Positions 4,676 through 17,191 of a DNA stretch of 50,178 nt are shown piece after piece (position 1 is the stretch's first letter; each line of letters opens with the position of its first letter). The notes beneath the pieces were generated by a model. It saw only the letters and a program-made list of their open reading frames with translations, ran no database searches and was not told the origin of the DNA. The position numbers and the translations under genes are program-made. Origin of the DNA: Halolamina pelagica. Lineage in GTDB: Archaea > Halobacteriota > Halobacteria > Halobacteriales > Haloferacaceae. The stretch spans positions 1-50,178 of the forward strand of contig NZ_FOXI01000014.1 of the NCBI RefSeq assembly GCF_900115675.1, in the 5' to 3' direction.

Positions 4676-4983
4676 CTGATTGCTAGTCTGATTCGGGTGG
4701 AGAGGACCATCGAAAAGCCCTCGGCCGCTCGACGTCCCGCGACCGCGCGAGACGGAGTCTCGCTGGCCCTCGTTCGCTCCGCTCACGAGGACGCCGCTGC
4801 GCGCCTCGGGGCTGCGGTGCTTGCGGGGTCGGGGGACGGCCGAGGCGGCCTCGCCCTTTCTGAGTCCACCAGGACTGTAGATGCCTCACCGAGCGGCGTA
4901 GCCGGCTGGACAGGTGTGTACGTAGCGGCCCGCCCCGCTCGCCGCTGCCGCCCTCCGCGTCGCTCGCGACCGACCATTCCGTG
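4676..4983. other. GC-rich non-coding stretch between convergent units
   Basis: I see no gene here. The stretch is GC-rich, contains short palindromes, and ends in a copy (4936-4981) of a repeat also found at 11151-11198. Sequence beyond it becomes AT-rich abruptly, so it marks an island boundary. Confidence 0.6.
4936..4981 (+). repeat. Dispersed boundary repeat, copy 1
   Basis: Positions 4950-4981 are identical over 32 nt to 11167-11198, and about 14 further bases to the left are near-identical (CGCTCGCCGC). Both copies sit at edges of AT-rich islands. The two copies bracket the M50/TnpB/halocin block (4984-11150) in direct orientation. Confidence 0.8.
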
Positions 4984-6767: not shown

Positions 6768-6944
6768 ATGTCGGTTGACCCTACCGAGATCGAGGAGGCT
6801 GAAGTCGAACTAGAGGAGTGGTTGGTCGAACAGGCCGAGAACGGTGTTCCGGAAATCGTCCTGATCGGGCTCCTCCGGGATTACGCGGACGACATCGAAC
6901 AGCTCGGCTACGTGCCGCGAATGTGGGGTGAGTCAGAGCGGTGA
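6768..6944 (+). CDS. 58-aa acidic protein translationally coupled to TnpB
   Basis: This short ORF encodes [18 protein letters not shown]... and ends ...[12 protein letters not shown]. It overlaps the TnpB-family start by 4 nt (GTGA), so the two proteins should be made together. The sequence is almost entirely helical and strongly acidic, with a hydrophobic centre ([19 protein letters not shown]). No known domain is recognisable. Coupling to tnpB suggests a role in controlling or stabilising the TnpB protein, or in regulating the element; both are inference. It stands downstream of leader element 1 and an untranslated stretch of about 90 nt. I rate it a real gene because of frame continuity, codon use with GC-rich third positions, and the overlap. 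Confidence 0.7.
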
Positions 6945-8182
6945 GACGGACCAACACCTTCGAAGTCGTTCCACAATCGGAACAAGACGAGGCCGTCCTT
7001 CGACGCCTTCTCGATGCGTCAGCGAGCCTCTGGAACCAGCTGACGTATGCGCGCCGGCAGCAGTTCTTCGCCGGCGAGAGCGTCTGGGACTGTGAGAACT
7101 ACTACGACGAGTACGTCGACGTGTTGGGGTCGGCGACGACCCAGCAGGTCACCCGCGTCAACGACGCCGCTTGGCGGTCGTTCTTCGAGACGGTTGAGGA
7201 GGCCGACCAGGAGGTCAGTCCCCCCGGCTACTGGGGCAATCAAGCCGACGGGCGCGACCTGCGGACCTACATCCGCAACGACGCCTACACGATCAGTTGG
7301 GGCAAGCGCTCCCGGCTCGAAGTGCCCATCGGCAGCCAGCTCAAAGACGAGTACGGGTTCGGTCGGTTCGAGCGGCTCCGTGTTGCCGTCCGCGGTGAAC
7401 CACACTGGGAGGGCGAGCAGGGTCGCCTTCACCTCACCTACGACGACGTCGACGAGACGTATCGCGCCCACCAGCCGGTAACAGTCTCCGAAGCGGAACA
7501 GGCGACGCCGACGGGGACGGACGTCGCCGCCCTCGATATCGGCGCGAACGTCCTCGTGGCGTGTACGACGACGATCGGCGACCAGTACTGGTACAGCGGC
7601 CAGGAGCCGTTCCGACAGTTCCGTGAGACGACCGAGCACATCGCCGACGCCAAAGCGAAGCTGCCGGATGGACAGCAGACCAGCAATCGAATCCAGCGGC
7701 TCTATCGGAAGCGGTCCCGCCGGCGCGATCACGCCGTGAACGCGCTCCTTCGTGATCTGGTCGAGCGGCTCCACGACGACGGCGTCGAAACCATGTACCA
7801 CGGCGATCTCACCGGCGTTCTCGGCGAGTACTGGTCCGTCGAGGCGAACCTCAAAGCCTGCACTTTCTGGGCGCATCGACGATGTCTCGACCAGCTCGCG
7901 AACGTCTGCGAGGAGTACGGCATCGAGGTGGCCTCACTCTCCGAGGCCTGGACCTCCCAGACGTGTCCGGAGTGCGGGGAGCGCGAGCGGACGCGCCGGC
8001 ATCGCGAGACGCTGCGGTGTCCGTGTGGCTTCGAGGGGCACGCCGATCTCGTTGCGTCGCGGACGCTGCTCGAACAGGCGACGAACACCGAGGTCAGGCC
8101 GACGGCACGGCCCGTGCGGTTCCAGTGGGACGACCACCAGTGGGCCCCCGTCGAGGGGGCCGCGGTGGGGCCCAACGAATAG
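6941..8182 (+). CDS. TnpB-family RNA-guided nuclease homologue, one RuvC acidic residue apparently missing
   Basis: The protein has 413 aa. The RuvC-like core begins with [15 protein letters not shown] (first Asp, about residue 198). The zinc ribbon is present ([21 protein letters not shown]), and the last RuvC block is [14 protein letters not shown], with the third Asp. Where active TnpBs have the catalytic Glu (the EDL motif), this protein has YHGDLTGVL, so Glu is replaced by Gly with an Asp beside it. As I recall, related haloarchaeal proteins share GDL, so this may be a subfamily trait. TnpB uses a guide RNA from the element's 3' end to cut DNA; a dead RuvC would give an RNA-guided DNA-binding protein instead. 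No TnpA is nearby. The GTG start at 6941 overlaps the upstream small ORF. Confidence 0.85.
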
Positions 8183-11062: not shown

Positions 11063-11150
11063 CGGAAGTCGGGATCGGGGTTTGCTGAACAGACTTTGAT
11101 CAGGCGCTAACGTCTCAATCTTCTCCAGTATCAAGCGTTTACGGCTCGCA

Positions 11151-11198
11151 CCGCTCGCCGCATTCCGCCCTCCGCGTCGCTCGCGACCGACCATTCCG
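11151..11198 (+). repeat. Dispersed boundary repeat, copy 2
   Basis: It is the second copy of the 4936-4981 repeat in the same orientation. Positions 11167-11198 are identical to 4950-4981. It marks the right edge of the AT-rich 5-11 kb island. Confidence 0.8.
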
Positions 11199-11405
11199 GG
11201 CATGCGGGCGCTCTCCGCACCGCCCGCGCCCGTTCCGGGCTAAAGTGTATGTGCCCTCGACGCCAGCGCTTCACCCGTTTGGGTCCTGCGGACCTCGGCA
11301 GAGCCGACCGCGACGGACGTAGTTGCGTCGCGGCGAACGGGGAATGCGCTGGCCGCTCGCTCCGGGCGGGTCGGCGCGCGGTGCTGGTTGGGTGACCCTC
11401 CTAAG

Positions 11406-11461
11406 GCGCGCTCTCGCTCGCGCCCGGGAGGGCGCTCGCGAAGGCGCGAGCGAGAGCGCGC
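11406..11461. repeat. Perfect 19-bp inverted repeat, 18-nt spacer
   Basis: The arm GCGCGCTCTCGCTCGCGCC (11406-11424) pairs perfectly with 11443-11461. It lies about 100 nt before the ssDNA-binding protein gene. It could be a very stable RNA hairpin or a cruciform-forming DNA site. Confidence 0.75.
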
Positions 11462-11493
11462 AGATGGTTCTGTCGGTCGTTGTCGTCGGAAAA

Positions 11494-11561
11494 CCGCGAT
11501 GTAAGGGCATCGCGGTGTCGGCGCGTGAGCGCCTTCGTCGGAAATCACCTTGTGAGTGATT
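11494..11561 (+). promoter_or_regulatory. Three tandem stem-loops in the leader of the OB-fold protein gene
   Basis: The stem-loops are CCGCGATG-TAAGGG-CATCGCGG (11494-11515), GGCGC-GTGA-GCGCC (11520-11533) and AATCAC-CTTGTGA-GTGATT (11543-11561). The last ends 3 nt before the ATG. TCGTCGGAAA occurs on both sides of the first two hairpins. This looks like a folded 5' UTR. Confidence 0.55.
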
Positions 11562-11564
11562 CCA

Positions 11565-12431
11565 ATGTCTAGTAACAACGCTAGCGGAAAGATCGTTTCG
11601 GTCGATGAACAGGCATTCGAGAAAGCGGACGAGCAGGCGGTCGATGAAGATGGCTTCCCGGTCGTCGACGAGACGCCGGAGTTCGAGGCGGCAGTCGAGC
11701 AGGAGACGCAGGCGAAGGTGGATGCGAACCACCCGGACGGGATCGCGGACACGAGCGAGGACCGGATTCACGGTGTCACCCTCGAACAGGAAGAGCGCAT
11801 TCAGGCGCGGGAAGCCGAACTGGAGCGCATCAGTGCCCAGGCCGAGCTGGGAACGCAGGAGGGCCGGGAGCAGCGCACGCGGGAGGTCGTCAGCGAGCTG
11901 TGTGGTCGTGACGAGCCGGCGCCGACGGAGCGCACGGATCCCCGTGAGAAGCTGACGCAAGACGAACTCGCGAAGGTGAACAAGCAGGCGATGCGCATCA
12001 GCGACGAAGTGAAAGGCGGCTGGTCGAGAGCGGTCGTCGCGAAGCAGCTGGCCGAGAAGGTGCAGCGCGGACGGGACGTCACGAAGGCGGTGCTGGAGAC
12101 CCTCGAGGAGTTGAAGGCGGCGCCGGGGGCGATCGTGCCCATCGCGGACGTGCCGGACGTCCCGGTCGGTGAGGTGACGGTCGAAGGCACAGTGAGCGAG
12201 CTCTGGGAGCCTTCCTCCACGAGCATCCAGCAGGTCGGGCTGATAGCGGATGACAGCGGGAAAATCAAGTTCACCGTTTGGAACAAGAGCAACCAGACAG
12301 TGGTGCAGAAAGGCGAAACGGTCCGGTTTCGGGCAGCAGCCAAGAACTGGTACGAAGGCCGGTGCTCAATTGCGCTAACCGGGTGGTCGGATATCCACTT
12401 TCCGGAGCGCGGTCGGTGGTGGGAAGAATAG
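11565..12431 (+). CDS. OB-fold single-stranded DNA-binding (RPA-like) protein
   Basis: The protein has 288 aa. Residues 1-190 are acidic and helical, with a coiled-coil-like segment (EQEERIQAREAELERISAQAELG). The C-terminal 100 residues form an OB fold: VPVGEVTVEGTVSELWEPSSTSIQQVGLIADDSGKIKFTVWNKSN, then VQKGETVRFRAAAKNWYEGRCSIALT. This matches haloarchaeal plasmid and viral RPA-like proteins, which coat ssDNA in replication and repair. An in-frame GTG at 11556 lies inside the last leader hairpin; ATG 11565 is preferred. The heavily structured leader suggests post-transcriptional control, perhaps by the protein itself (inferred). A T-rich run at 12444-12457 probably ends the transcript. No partner gene is adjacent, so it is likely monocistronic. 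Confidence 0.8.
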   Translation: MSSNNASGKIVSVDEQAFEKADEQAVDEDGFPVVDETPEFEAAVEQETQAKVDANHPDGIADTSEDRIHGVTLEQEERIQAREAELERISAQAELGTQEGREQRTREVVSELCGRDEPAPTERTDPREKLTQDELAKVNKQAMRISDEVKGGWSRAVVAKQLAEKVQRGRDVTKAVLETLEELKAAPGAIVPIADVPDVPVGEVTVEGTVSELWEPSSTSIQQVGLIADDSGKIKFTVWNKSNQTVVQKGETVRFRAAAKNWYEGRCSIALTGWSDIHFPERGRWWEE

Positions 12432-12443
12432 CGAGGATGCGGT

Positions 12444-12457
12444 CTCTTTCTTTTTTA
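12444..12457 (+). terminator. T-rich terminator behind the OB-fold gene
   Basis: TCTCTTTCTTTTTT lies 13-26 nt after the stop codon. Runs of T are typical archaeal terminators. Confidence 0.5.
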
Positions 12458-12476
12458 TGTGCCAGACCAGACCCAA

Positions 12477-12501
12477 GCCCCACCGCCCCACCCTCCGCTC
12501 C
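12477..12501 (+). repeat. 25-nt direct repeat, left copy, flanking the LAGLIDADG gene
   Basis: It is identical to 13335-13359, and about 15 bases to the left are also similar (GCCAGACCAG versus GCCGGACCAG). It can also pair with GGAGGGTGGGGTGGTG near 12547-12562 as a long hairpin. Confidence 0.8.
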
Positions 12502-12599
12502 GTGCTCGCTCCCTGCGGTCGCTGCGCGCGCAGCCACGACCGTTGTGGAGGGTGGGGTGGTGAGTTGATCTCTTCTCGTCCAATATGTAGCAGGGAGAG

Positions 12600-12629: not shown

Positions 12630-13259
12630 ATGTCAAATAGTTCACCCGAGACCCACGATTTCGATGCGTGGTTCACTGGCTTCTTCGACGGCGAAGGCTG
12701 TATCCGCATCGCAATTGCCGACCGTGAGCGGTACAGTACCGGCTTTGAACTTGCACCAATGCTCCGAATCACCCACGAACAGTTGACCGGAACTCTCGAC
12801 GCAGAAGGCTGGATTGGCGTGAAAGTAAACCAGAATAGTGAGTATCGAGTCGACCACCGACTTCAGCCGCAAATCGAGGTCACCGAAACATATCGTGACC
12901 ACCTGATGGAGGCGCTCTGTGCGTACTGTGATGCTCACGATGTGAACTGTCATGTGTCCAGTCTCGAAGCCAATGAGAACCGGAGCGATCAGTACATTTG
13001 GGGCGTGCAGGGTATCAGCAATACCCGGACGCTCCTCACCCCGCTCCGCGATCAGTTCATTGTCAAGCGCGAGCAGGTCGATCTCCTCCTTGACGAGATT
13101 CTGCCCCGGATGGACCAGGGCGTCCATCACGAGAAAGAAGGCTTTCTTGAGGTGATGTACTACGTCGACCGGTTCAACTCGTACAAAGGTGGCAGTCGAG
13201 GGAAATACACACTCGAGTATTTCGAGGAACTCTGGGGGATGGAATACACTCCCGAGTAG
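12630..13259 (+). CDS. Free-standing LAGLIDADG homing endonuclease-like protein
   Basis: This 209-aa protein has two LAGLIDADG-type helices, WFTGFFDGEGCI (about residues 14-25) and LTGTLDAEGWIGV (about 51-63), each ending in the acidic residue that binds the metal. The second is followed by the usual beta-sheet (YRVDHRLQPQIEV) and the helical arrangement HLMEALCAYCDAHDV. The two motifs are only about 37 residues apart, whereas a normal two-domain enzyme has about 100, so the first half looks internally shortened. Such enzymes cut long, rare DNA sites and promote their own copying. No intron or intein host surrounds it. It is flanked by 25-nt direct repeats, consistent with a mobile cassette (inferred). 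It could now serve as a regulator rather than a nuclease. Confidence 0.75.
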   Translation: MSNSSPETHDFDAWFTGFFDGEGCIRIAIADRERYSTGFELAPMLRITHEQLTGTLDAEGWIGVKVNQNSEYRVDHRLQPQIEVTETYRDHLMEALCAYCDAHDVNCHVSSLEANENRSDQYIWGVQGISNTRTLLTPLRDQFIVKREQVDLLLDEILPRMDQGVHHEKEGFLEVMYYVDRFNSYKGGSRGKYTLEYFEELWGMEYTPE

Positions 13260-13711: not shown

Positions 13712-13810
13712 GAATCGAAGGCCAGTGAGAACCTGAAGCGGGGGCTGAGGAGCTGTAACTTCTAGTCGGTTCGTCTGATTTTCAAACTCCAATTTCAGTA
13801 CATGGTTATC

Positions 13811-13818
13811 TTTTATTT
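13811..13818 (+). promoter_or_regulatory. TATA box of the KAP NTPase gene
   Basis: TTTTATTT is centred about 26 nt before ATG 13841. It decides the start against the upstream in-frame ATG at 13802. Confidence 0.6.
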
Positions 13819-13840
13819 GGGTGCTGGCAGATTCGAAGCC

Positions 13841-16800
13841 ATGACCGGTGACGATGGACGTGTCTTTCTCTCTGATGAGCCAATAGAGTCGACAAATCAA
13901 GATCGGTTCGAGCATCAAGAGTACGTCGACGCACTTGAGCAGATACTGGAGAACGCAGAGCCACGATGGAATATCGGTGTATTCGGGAAGTGGGGGACGG
14001 GCAAGAGCTCGATAATCAACCTCTTGTTCGACCGTCTGAGTGACAATCCCAAGTTTGAGAACACGGTCTGTGTAGAATTCGATGCATGGACACACGCGGA
14101 AGACTCGATTCGGACAGACCTGCTTCTCGGTATCGACCACGAACTCGGTCAGAAGACAGACACGAAGATTGATAGTGAGTACGGTATCCTCGGAGAGGAC
14201 CACATAACAGAGGAGCTCTACGACATTACGGAAGACAACAGTAGCGATAACCCAGATCTCCGTGAGTATGCACAGCAACTCCTCACCCAATCGAAGTTCG
14301 TCACGGCGACTGTCGCGATAACTGCGGTAATCCTGATAGCAGGAGTAGTCATCAACGCCCTGAACGCCTTCGGTATCTTCACTCCGGGTCAGGATCTAAT
14401 GGGGACAGCGAATAGCATCCTCCAGATTGCCATTTTGCCTCTATTTCTCAGTCTCTTCATTTTCATGGCGAAGCAGGTCGAGGACGCGACATCGACGCTT
14501 CGTCAGCGGTATCCGCGTAATGATTGGTCCGGTGCGTATGAGCAGCTGTTCGAAGAAATGCTCGACGAACTGATGGAAAAGACGGAGTACGAACAGGTTA
14601 TCATCTCCGTCGACAATCTGGACCGGTGTGAAAGCGACACCGTCTACGATGTCCTGGTCTCCCTCAAGACGTTCATGGGCAACGACCGCTGCCTCTACAT
14701 TATTCCCTGCGACGACGAGGCGCTTCTCAGCCACATCCAGTCTATCGACCGGGGGGAATACTTCGAAGAGAACGAAAATGAGCAGGAATTCCTACGGAAA
14801 CTCTTCCAAGCCCACGTCCGTATTCCGCCGTTCACCAGTGACGCTATCTCCGATTATGCTGCTGAACTAAACGGCCAACTCAAGCACGGTTACGATGAGG
14901 AGGTTCTCTCGGTCATCACGAAAGCATACGTCCGAAACCCGCGCCGTATAAAACAGGCACTCAACCGTCTGACGACGCTACGGATGTTGGCCGAGGAAAT
15001 AGAGGACACTCAACGAATGCGTGAAGGAGTGATTACCGGCAACCTCCCGTTCTTGGCGAAGATGTCGATATTGCAGGAGGACTTCCCAGAGTTCTATCGG
15101 TCCCTACAAACGAACCCACGTCTACTTGAGGAGTTCAATGACTACTTCGCTGGTCGTGTGATGGACCCGGAACGAAAGGAAGAACTGGCATCACACTTCG
15201 AGCCGACAGAAGACGGGAACGGAAAGTCCGTGGAAGGCCTTCGAGAGTTTCTGTCTTCCACACGGTACATCACTGACAATAACCCACGCCGATTCATCTA
15301 TCTGAGCGAGCCACCGTACACGCTCACACTTGAAGACGGTGACCGCTTCGTCGAAGATCTACGTGCGCGACAGGTCGATAAGGTTCGCGACGAACTGGAT
15401 GCCCTATTTGAAGACGAGGGGGACTTCGGGCCATACCGCGAGGCAATTGACGATACGCTTGACGAGTGGAGTCATCTTGATTCAGAGCTCTTCAACATCA
15501 TCGAGGGGTTGATGGAGGTATTCGATGCTCTGGATGACGACGCCCAGACTCAGGTATCCCGAATGGTAAGTGAGTACCTGGTCTCCGTAGACAGGCGGCA
15601 CTTCTTGGAAGATTTGGATCCCAGCATCTCGTTCCCGATGATACTCAAAATGCAACCACGTGACTCACGTCTGCTCTTTGGGGCTTATGGTGAACTGGCC
15701 GCTGATTCAGAAACCCTTCAGGAGAATATCCTTGATGCGTTCGTTAAACACGCGGAAGGAATTCCGGAGTCTGCGAACCGATCCCTGACCGAGAGTCTTG
15801 TTCAGCTACGTGAGAATCAGCAGGAAGACGTGTTCAAAACGGCGCTCGACAAAATTCACAGTTCGGCAGCCGCACGGGACAAATTCGCCACCACGAAGCT
15901 GCTGACGGAGGCCATCAAGCTGATTGAGTTGGGTAATAACGAACGTCAGTTTGAGAACGAGGACTACTACCAGAAGTTCGACTCGGATGCATCTACCGAG
16001 GCCCGAGGTACGTTCATCGAAAAATTGCTTGATCTCCGGAACGAAGTTGAAGATAACAATATCAACCATATCAACGACAGTATTTCGAATATCCTCCTCA
16101 AGATCGAATCTGACCTACCACGTCAAACTGCGAGTCATCTCTACAACGAATTCCACGGGATGGTAAATGCCCCGAGTAATAATGAAAAGAATCTGGTTGA
16201 GACGCTCTTCTATCACTATGACACGCTCTCGTCGAGTGACCAGAACCGATTCCGTCAGGAATGTATGAAACAGATTCAGAACTGGGGTGGAACCGGACAG
16301 CAGTATCTGAAGTGGGCTCAACAGTATGATGTGCCCCTGCTTGATTCAGAAGACGCAGTGACGACAGCACTGGACCCGTTCCCGGACCAGAATACGAACA
16401 CGGGGCTCCTCACCAACACAGTCTTATCGCTGATACCTAAGGAGTTCGACGAAGAACTGACCTCGCCGAAGTTGATTGAGATCTTGGACAACAACGATGA
16501 CTCTCGTGCACAGCTTGGTGCAGAGATGTTTTCCACCGCACCAAAGCGATTCGAGAGTGTTCAAGACAAGGTAGTCAGTACGTGTCTTAAAAAAGTAAAC
16601 AAGACAAACGACACGAGCAGTAAACAGATCTATCTGACTGCTGTTGCCGAAGTGTTTACTGACCTTTCTGACAGTGATCAGGAACTGTTCCTCAGTCGGC
16701 TAACCGACCTTGCGCGTGGGAACAATAAGGACAAGCAAGCGTTCTACCGTGTGTGGAATGAAGTCAAATCAAACCTAACTTCTAATCACCGTCGCAAGGT

Positions 16801-17191
16801 GGGTCAAAACGTACTCTCCATTCTGGAAGACGAAGTGAGTGACCAGAATCAACAGGTTCCGACTGATGACTTGGTCAAAGTTCTCCAATCGGTGACCGAC
16901 AACCTCGCTACAAACGCGCACGAAGAGTTCATTCAACGGCTGAGTGATGAACTGACAGATGGAAACGTCGGATGGCAACAGAAACAGGACATCGTGGGCC
17001 AACTCGCCGCATTCGACGATCTCGCCGGGCAGGAGGATCTAGTCCTAACTCGTATCGAAGGAATGTTGAAACAGAACTCTCAGAACCAGCTCCACCAGAC
17101 CACCAAAAAGAAGCTTGCTACCCTTGAGGGGCACGACGGAATAGATGAAACTAAAATTGAAGAAATCCGGGAGCACCATCTGAAATTATAA
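13841..17191 (+). CDS. KAP-family P-loop NTPase with inserted membrane helices
   Basis: The protein has 1116 aa. Residues 1-400 form a KAP domain. FLSDEPIE is at the very start, Walker A is GKWGTGKSS (about 49-57), and VEFDAWTHAEDS is the KAP-typical block after it. Two membrane helices are inserted in the NTPase (about 160-185, VTATVAITAVILIAGVVINAL; about 197-217, LQIAILPLFLSLFIFMAK). Walker B is VIISVDNLDRCESD (about 255-268), and YVRNPRRIKQALNRL is the sensor region. The remaining 700 residues are a helical repeat-like extension without recognised motifs. KAP NTPases are membrane-anchored and some act in phage exclusion (PifA type). A sensor/effector arrangement is therefore plausible (inferred). 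The TATA at 13811 supports a leaderless start. GC content is lower than in the flanks. Confidence 0.85.
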   Translation: MTGDDGRVFLSDEPIESTNQDRFEHQEYVDALEQILENAEPRWNIGVFGKWGTGKSSIINLLFDRLSDNPKFENTVCVEFDAWTHAEDSIRTDLLLGIDHELGQKTDTKIDSEYGILGEDHITEELYDITEDNSSDNPDLREYAQQLLTQSKFVTATVAITAVILIAGVVINALNAFGIFTPGQDLMGTANSILQIAILPLFLSLFIFMAKQVEDATSTLRQRYPRNDWSGAYEQLFEEMLDELMEKTEYEQVIISVDNLDRCESDTVYDVLVSLKTFMGNDRCLYIIPCDDEALLSHIQSIDRGEYFEENENEQEFLRKLFQAHVRIPPFTSDAISDYAAELNGQLKHGYDEEVLSVITKAYVRNPRRIKQALNRLTTLRMLAEEIEDTQRMREGVITGNLPFLAKMSILQEDFPEFYRSLQTNPRLLEEFNDYFAGRVMDPERKEELASHFEPTEDGNGKSVEGLREFLSSTRYITDNNPRRFIYLSEPPYTLTLEDGDRFVEDLRARQVDKVRDELDALFEDEGDFGPYREAIDDTLDEWSHLDSELFNIIEGLMEVFDALDDDAQTQVSRMVSEYLVSVDRRHFLEDLDPSISFPMILKMQPRDSRLLFGAYGELAADSETLQENILDAFVKHAEGIPESANRSLTESLVQLRENQQEDVFKTALDKIHSSAAARDKFATTKLLTEAIKLIELGNNERQFENEDYYQKFDSDASTEARGTFIEKLLDLRNEVEDNNINHINDSISNILLKIESDLPRQTASHLYNEFHGMVNAPSNNEKNLVETLFYHYDTLSSSDQNRFRQECMKQIQNWGGTGQQYLKWAQQYDVPLLDSEDAVTTALDPFPDQNTNTGLLTNTVLSLIPKEFDEELTSPKLIEILDNNDDSRAQLGAEMFSTAPKRFESVQDKVVSTCLKKVNKTNDTSSKQIYLTAVAEVFTDLSDSDQELFLSRLTDLARGNNKDKQAFYRVWNEVKSNLTSNHRRKVGQNVLSILEDEVSDQNQQVPTDDLVKVLQSVTDNLATNAHEEFIQRLSDELTDGNVGWQQKQDIVGQLAAFDDLAGQEDLVLTRIEGMLKQNSQNQLHQTTKKKLATLEGHDGIDETKIEEIREHHLKL

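Follow-up and report, generated by a model that had tools for sequence, protein, structure and literature searches.

A previously uncatalogued structured RNA leader upstream of OB-fold and TFB genes in haloarchaea

Autogenously acting structured leaders of ribosomal-protein mRNAs, for example L1 leaders, exist in bacteria and methanogens, while the omegaRNAs of IscB (HEARO) and TnpB elements represent structured RNAs located beside a nuclease ORF. Haloarchaeal mRNAs are mostly leaderless, and to our knowledge few structured cis-RNAs are known in haloarchaea. In Haloferax volcanii, 72% of protein-coding transcripts were reported as leaderless, in agreement with the remark of an earlier note on this DNA that a long leader is unusual in this group; because the survey counted 5'-UTRs of up to 250 nt only, it could not assign leaders of the kind described here (PMC4983044). 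Large ornate RNAs of several hundred nucleotides, multibranched and covarying, have been described in bacteria as GOLLD, ROOL and OLE (PMC12286853).

The window (a 50,178-nt stretch from Halolamina pelagica) contains a leader that is comparable to each of these systems in part. Like the ribosomal-protein leaders, it would be a structured leader acting in cis on a gene whose product is a nucleic-acid-binding protein, but it is much larger and is common to two unrelated gene families. It shares size, multibranched fold and covariation with GOLLD, ROOL and OLE, but is archaeal, directly adjoins an ORF at its start codon and has no Rfam match. With the omegaRNAs it has in common a structured RNA beside one ORF within a bounded, multi-copy module; however, the partner ORFs encode an OB-fold protein or a TFB and not an RNA-guided nuclease, no transposase is present and no empty site was found, and assignment to the IscB/TnpB omegaRNAs was rejected. 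The protein family downstream is that named in PMC5924565, comprising Rfa5/Rfa6 of Hbt. salinarum and HVO_A0019, HVO_A0374 and HVO_A0409 of Haloferax volcanii. According to the accessible part of that paper, Rfa5/Rfa6 are expressed at a low level and their deletion carries a ~15-fold survival cost under mitomycin C; a leader RNA is not described in that part, and no description of one was found in the literature.

Extent and parts of the leader

The earlier note had described a folded leader at 11406-11564. The perfect 19-bp inverted repeat (11406-11424 and 11443-11461, with an 18-nt gap) and three stem-loops (11494-11515, 11520-11533 and 11543-11561), all located 5' of the ATG at 11565, were recovered in full. 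The first stem-loop can be extended by one pair to 11493-11516, while the last, although present as described, is extended by an additional outer stem (GGAA/TTCC), which reduces its spacing to the ATG from 3 nt to 1 nt. The direct repeat TCGTCGGAAA does occur at 11483-11492 and 11535-11544, but was rejected as a conserved feature, its two copies being found together in only 13 of 214 leaders.

The leader itself proved real but had been drawn too short: conservation among homologues starts sharply at 11142, not near 11406, and continues to the start codon. The hairpins at 11406-11564 thus make up the 3' portion of a noncoding leader of ~420 nt (11142-11564). Folding z-scores relative to shuffled sequences were -3.9 (11462-11567), -5.6 (11390-11600) and -5.7 (11142-11564), and no shuffled sequence folded as well as any of these three intervals. 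A coding function for the leader was rejected, as most indels (1553 of 1805) have lengths that are not divisible by 3 and stop codons occur in all six frames.

Consensus folding yielded hairpin P0, a long-range stem P1, P2, P3, a branched P4, and P5, P6, P7 and P8. The last hairpin, P9, was too variable for alignment, and its arms were compared directly. The features of the window copy are as follows.

11142-11564, + strand: whole structured leader, delimited by homologues, a sharp conservation edge and a fold z of -5.7
11142-11160, + strand: P0 hairpin (CGGC..GCCG), the 5' edge of copies lacking D1
11168-11391, + strand: P1 long-range stem, in which 11168-11201 pairs with 11359-11391 and encloses a multibranched domain
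11202-11233, + strand: P2 hairpin, with several stem-forming alleles of unrelated appearance
11237-11256, + strand: P3 region with conserved unpaired TAAARTGNATGTG, from alignments
11259-11358, + strand: P4 branched variable arm, closed by GCCAGCG/CGCTGG, with compensatory pairs
11406-11461, + strand: P5, formed by the 19-bp inverted repeat; across 97 leaders, 96.6-98.2% of cells are paired
11493-11516, + strand: P7 stem-loop, two-sided changes in 5 of 9 pairs
11520-11533, + strand: P8 stem-loop, followed by near-invariant GTGAGCGCCTTC
11540-11563, + strand: P9 hairpin, variable in sequence, 1 nt short of the ATG, from the arm-swap test
11565-12431, + strand: gene for an OB-fold ssDNA-binding-type protein of 288 aa, rfa5/rfa6 family

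The window copy is without the 5' domain D1, which most other copies carry. D1 consists of one long hairpin, the first letters of which are exactly GAAAGCCC; it was recognised in about two-thirds of the copies, and leaders with D1 measure about 550-650 nt. The copy on pNRC200 (L252, minus strand) also has no D1 and contains an extra hairpin-rich insertion of ~100 nt in a P1 strand.

Compensatory changes and strand specificity

To avoid circularity, base pairs were defined on the window sequence alone and subsequently counted in the homologues. In the core, 79.4% of cells were paired, compared with 42-45% when the pairing was slid, and 157 two-sided cells were observed versus 83 in shuffles; in the 3' domain, 94.8% of cells were paired, with 41 two-sided cells versus 9.2 in shuffles. 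These covariation counts are weakened by the relatedness of the copies, which may share sequence through gene conversion, and part of the covariation could be mimicked in this way. P1, a stem taken from the window copy alone, was paired in 85% of cells and showed two-sided changes at eight pairs, while the clearest compensation was seen in P4, where single positions alternate between CG (12), GC (12) and UA (7), or between UA (17) and AU (15). The check proposed in the earlier note, i.e. covariation among leaders of homologous genes, therefore came out in favour of pairing maintained by compensatory changes.

For P9, the mean stem was 4.85 bp, compared with 3.42 bp (sd 0.15) when arms were swapped among sequences, and a stem of at least 4 bp was present in 35 of 48 newly seen sequences. 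P9 is poor in some copies, several TFB leaders in particular. At the level of sequence comparison, P9 is kept by pairing and not by its sequence.

An RNA made from one strand tolerates G-U pairs, whereas on the opposite strand such a pair reads as A-C. Single-site departures in the core were G-U:A-C=111:60 on the + strand and 68:108 on the - strand; in the 3' domain the same lean was weak (203:185 and 188:236, respectively). Strand-specific wobble was also observed in the consensus folds. Since G-U exceeds A-C on the + strand, with the reverse on the - strand, the element appears to act as mRNA-strand RNA. Neither the P5 pairs (GU 11, AC 19) nor D1 distinguish RNA from DNA. Taken together, the compensatory changes and the wobble are those of a conserved structured RNA, as judged from the alignments, the wobble signal being strong in the core and weak in the 3' domain. 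The long folded leader proposed earlier is therefore well borne out by homologues, compensatory changes and strand-specific wobble.

Distribution, downstream genes and possible control

With the interval 11406-11564 as query, a second leader copy, 83% identical, was found in the same genome ahead of a TFB gene, while the leader of an OB-gene paralogue, itself 69% identical to the OB gene, has diverged but shows the closing hairpins as well. Within the family of the window, the element is present in 91 of 170 genomes, often in several copies, and it was found on 157 plasmid records, including Halobacterium pNRC100 and pNRC200. In Halobacterium salinarum NRC-1, the OB genes concerned are located at 147098 on the + strand of pNRC100 (NC_001869.1) and at 315084 on the - strand of pNRC200 (NC_002608.1). 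A covariance model built from the 3' domain, with OB and TFB leaders as training set, matched 110 of 194 haloarchaeal genomes and 50 of 65 genera, with up to 12 copies per genome; outside the haloarchaeal class, no match was obtained in a phylum sample of 148. Rfam 15 gave no matches in the window at the gathering score, and only chance-level matches, belonging to no family, for five related loci at gathering and relaxed thresholds. The leader is a previously uncatalogued RNA structure of salt-loving archaea.

Sixty model matches, picked for their absence from the listed protein matches, were read out, and all 60 run at 0 nt, at the predicted ATG, into the start of an OB (52) or TFB (8) ORF. 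Leader copies occur ahead of these two unrelated ORF families only, i.e. OB (rfa5/rfa6) and TFB, although other target genes could escape a model trained on OB and TFB leaders. The element thus occupies a fixed place directly 5' of a restricted gene set, the position of a cis-regulatory leader. TFB genes with the same leader are found at loci L002, L022, L025, L130, L142 and L235, the last being a very diverged, chromosomal TFB gene.

This fixed position bears on the possibility that the element is a stable noncoding RNA acting in trans, with the ORF as a linked passenger and P9 marking the RNA 3' end. Such an RNA is suggested by the bounded multidomain fold and by solo copies in which D1 and core occur without an ORF; given that all 60 read-out matches lead directly into OB or TFB, and that the solo copies mostly resemble truncated remnants, this explanation is considered improbable.

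The reading favoured here, from comparative sequence evidence, is that the leader is probably a large multidomain cis-acting 5' mRNA leader of the Rfa5/Rfa6-type OB gene, which would control its ORF, likely at translation. The leader would be transcribed together with the ORF; as no conserved promoter-like A/T peak was present upstream of either 5' edge in the A/T profile, it may be read from upstream genes. It would then gate expression of the ORF, most likely at translation initiation, a step favoured because the P9 stem abuts the AUG and there is no consistent ribosome-binding sequence. A Shine-Dalgarno sequence in the P9 loop was considered and rejected, SD-like motifs near the ATG being present in just 43 of 214 leaders. 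Two outcomes, opening of P9 or removal of the leader to leave a leaderless mRNA, would then be selected by the large upstream fold.

The latter outcome could in itself account for the element, if cleavage beside P9, by the RNA itself or by a nuclease, frees a leaderless mRNA, the commonest haloarchaeal form given the 72% cited above for Hfx. volcanii (PMC4983044). P9 stops 1 nt before the AUG in most leaders, as such a cut would have it, but no match to a known ribozyme or Rfam family was found, and cleavage as the main function is regarded as unlikely.

A similarly low probability is assigned to autogenous control, as raised in the earlier note, in which the OB protein binds its own leader (and TFB leaders) and represses or activates translation. 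The protein has a C-terminal SSB-type OB domain, which would fit, as would the very large size and the conservation of the leader; in the AlphaFold model, high confidence is confined to the OB domain and portions of the helical region. However, SSB-type OB domains are usually sequence-tolerant, and autoregulation by the OB protein is weakened because TFB genes carry the same leader, which is hence not confined to the gene of its presumed ligand.

A cis-acting leader of this size, spread over 50 genera and two unrelated gene families, would be one of the largest cis-RNAs of archaea; it would also tie together the regulation of plasmid-borne genes for ssDNA-binding proteins and for basal transcription factors.

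Bounded module and its neighbourhood

Conservation extends beyond the OB gene, and a conserved right end past the T-run indicates that the unit is more than a leader. The corresponding features, together with a fragment of another copy, are listed below.

12451-12456, + strand: T-run past the stop codon, terminator-like, conserved in position among 133 downstream stretches
12473-12541, + strand: conserved right end of the module, type 1, finishing ...GCGCGCAGCCACGACC
4714-4981, + strand: fragment of another copy, consisting of D1 and the start of the core, with no ORF

The right ends of homologues are of two types, type 2 finishing GGGCTTTCGC, which matches the start of D1 in inverted orientation. 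From D1 to the right end, modules span 1.5-1.9 kb, and 2.0 kb at one locus. Both the left and the right edge abut unrelated sequence, and flanks were found separately, attached beside other copies, while no empty site, i.e. joined flanks without the element, was detected in three joined-flank searches. On sequence grounds, leader, ORF and right end read as a bounded module, the neighbours of which reassort by recombination through the repeated block. Classification as a transposable element was rejected, as the unit holds only OB or TFB, with no transposase and no empty site; the module may be mobilised in trans.

These edges are also what could be expected of a DNA-level element, in which the palindrome-rich sequence would terminate a 1.5-1.9-kb module that serves recombination, replication or partition, and the conserved right end, the reassorting flanks and the presence of up to 12 copies per genome are compatible with it. 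Yet the wobble excess is strand-specific, the register to start codons is fixed and P9 is compensatory, which are features pertinent to RNA; the unit, moreover, has neither a transposase nor an empty site in the searches described, and the phage collection contained no copies, with one distant protein match in viral contigs. A DNA-level function is accordingly held to be very unlikely. The suggestion in the earlier note of a replication-related DNA structure, such as an origin, is likewise not supported, in view of strand specificity, location exactly at start codons and a copy number of up to 12 per genome.

Extending the favoured reading of a cis-acting leader to the module as a whole, it is conceivable, though doubtful, that the element represents a new large archaeal RNA class (~550 nt when D1 is included) that either acts as a sensor of a signal or is cleaved at P9 to give a leaderless mRNA, and that forms the 5' part of a modular unit spreading and reassorting among haloarchaeal plasmids, thereby jointly controlling ssDNA-binding and TFB genes.

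The fragment at 4714-4981 is preceded by an HTH gene and by a PIN-like gene, and the OB copy lies 6.2 kb downstream of it; a comparable split of 6.2 kb was seen in another genome (G118, C2 30418 and 36660). Solo copies at L158, L159, L165 and L167 consist of D1 and half of the core, without an OB/TFB ORF and with a different 3' sequence, which is partly common to three of them (GAATCCGCTG..GTAGAT).

A TnpB-like ORF (6941-8182) lies in the window between the fragment at 4714-4981 and the OB module, and on pNRC200 (L252) a TnpB is located just upstream of the OB leader. Downstream of the module lie a LAGLIDADG-type-looking ORF (12630-13259) and a KAP-type P-loop NTPase-looking ORF (13802-17191), a KAP-like ORF also being present behind copy L227. 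The left flanks of L046, L053, L055 and L057 carry recurrent small genes with a HalOD1 domain (Pfam PF18545), a PIN-like gene and a gene of 109 aa that has no Pfam match, and the recurrent upstream neighbours at these four loci end 12-36 nt before D1.
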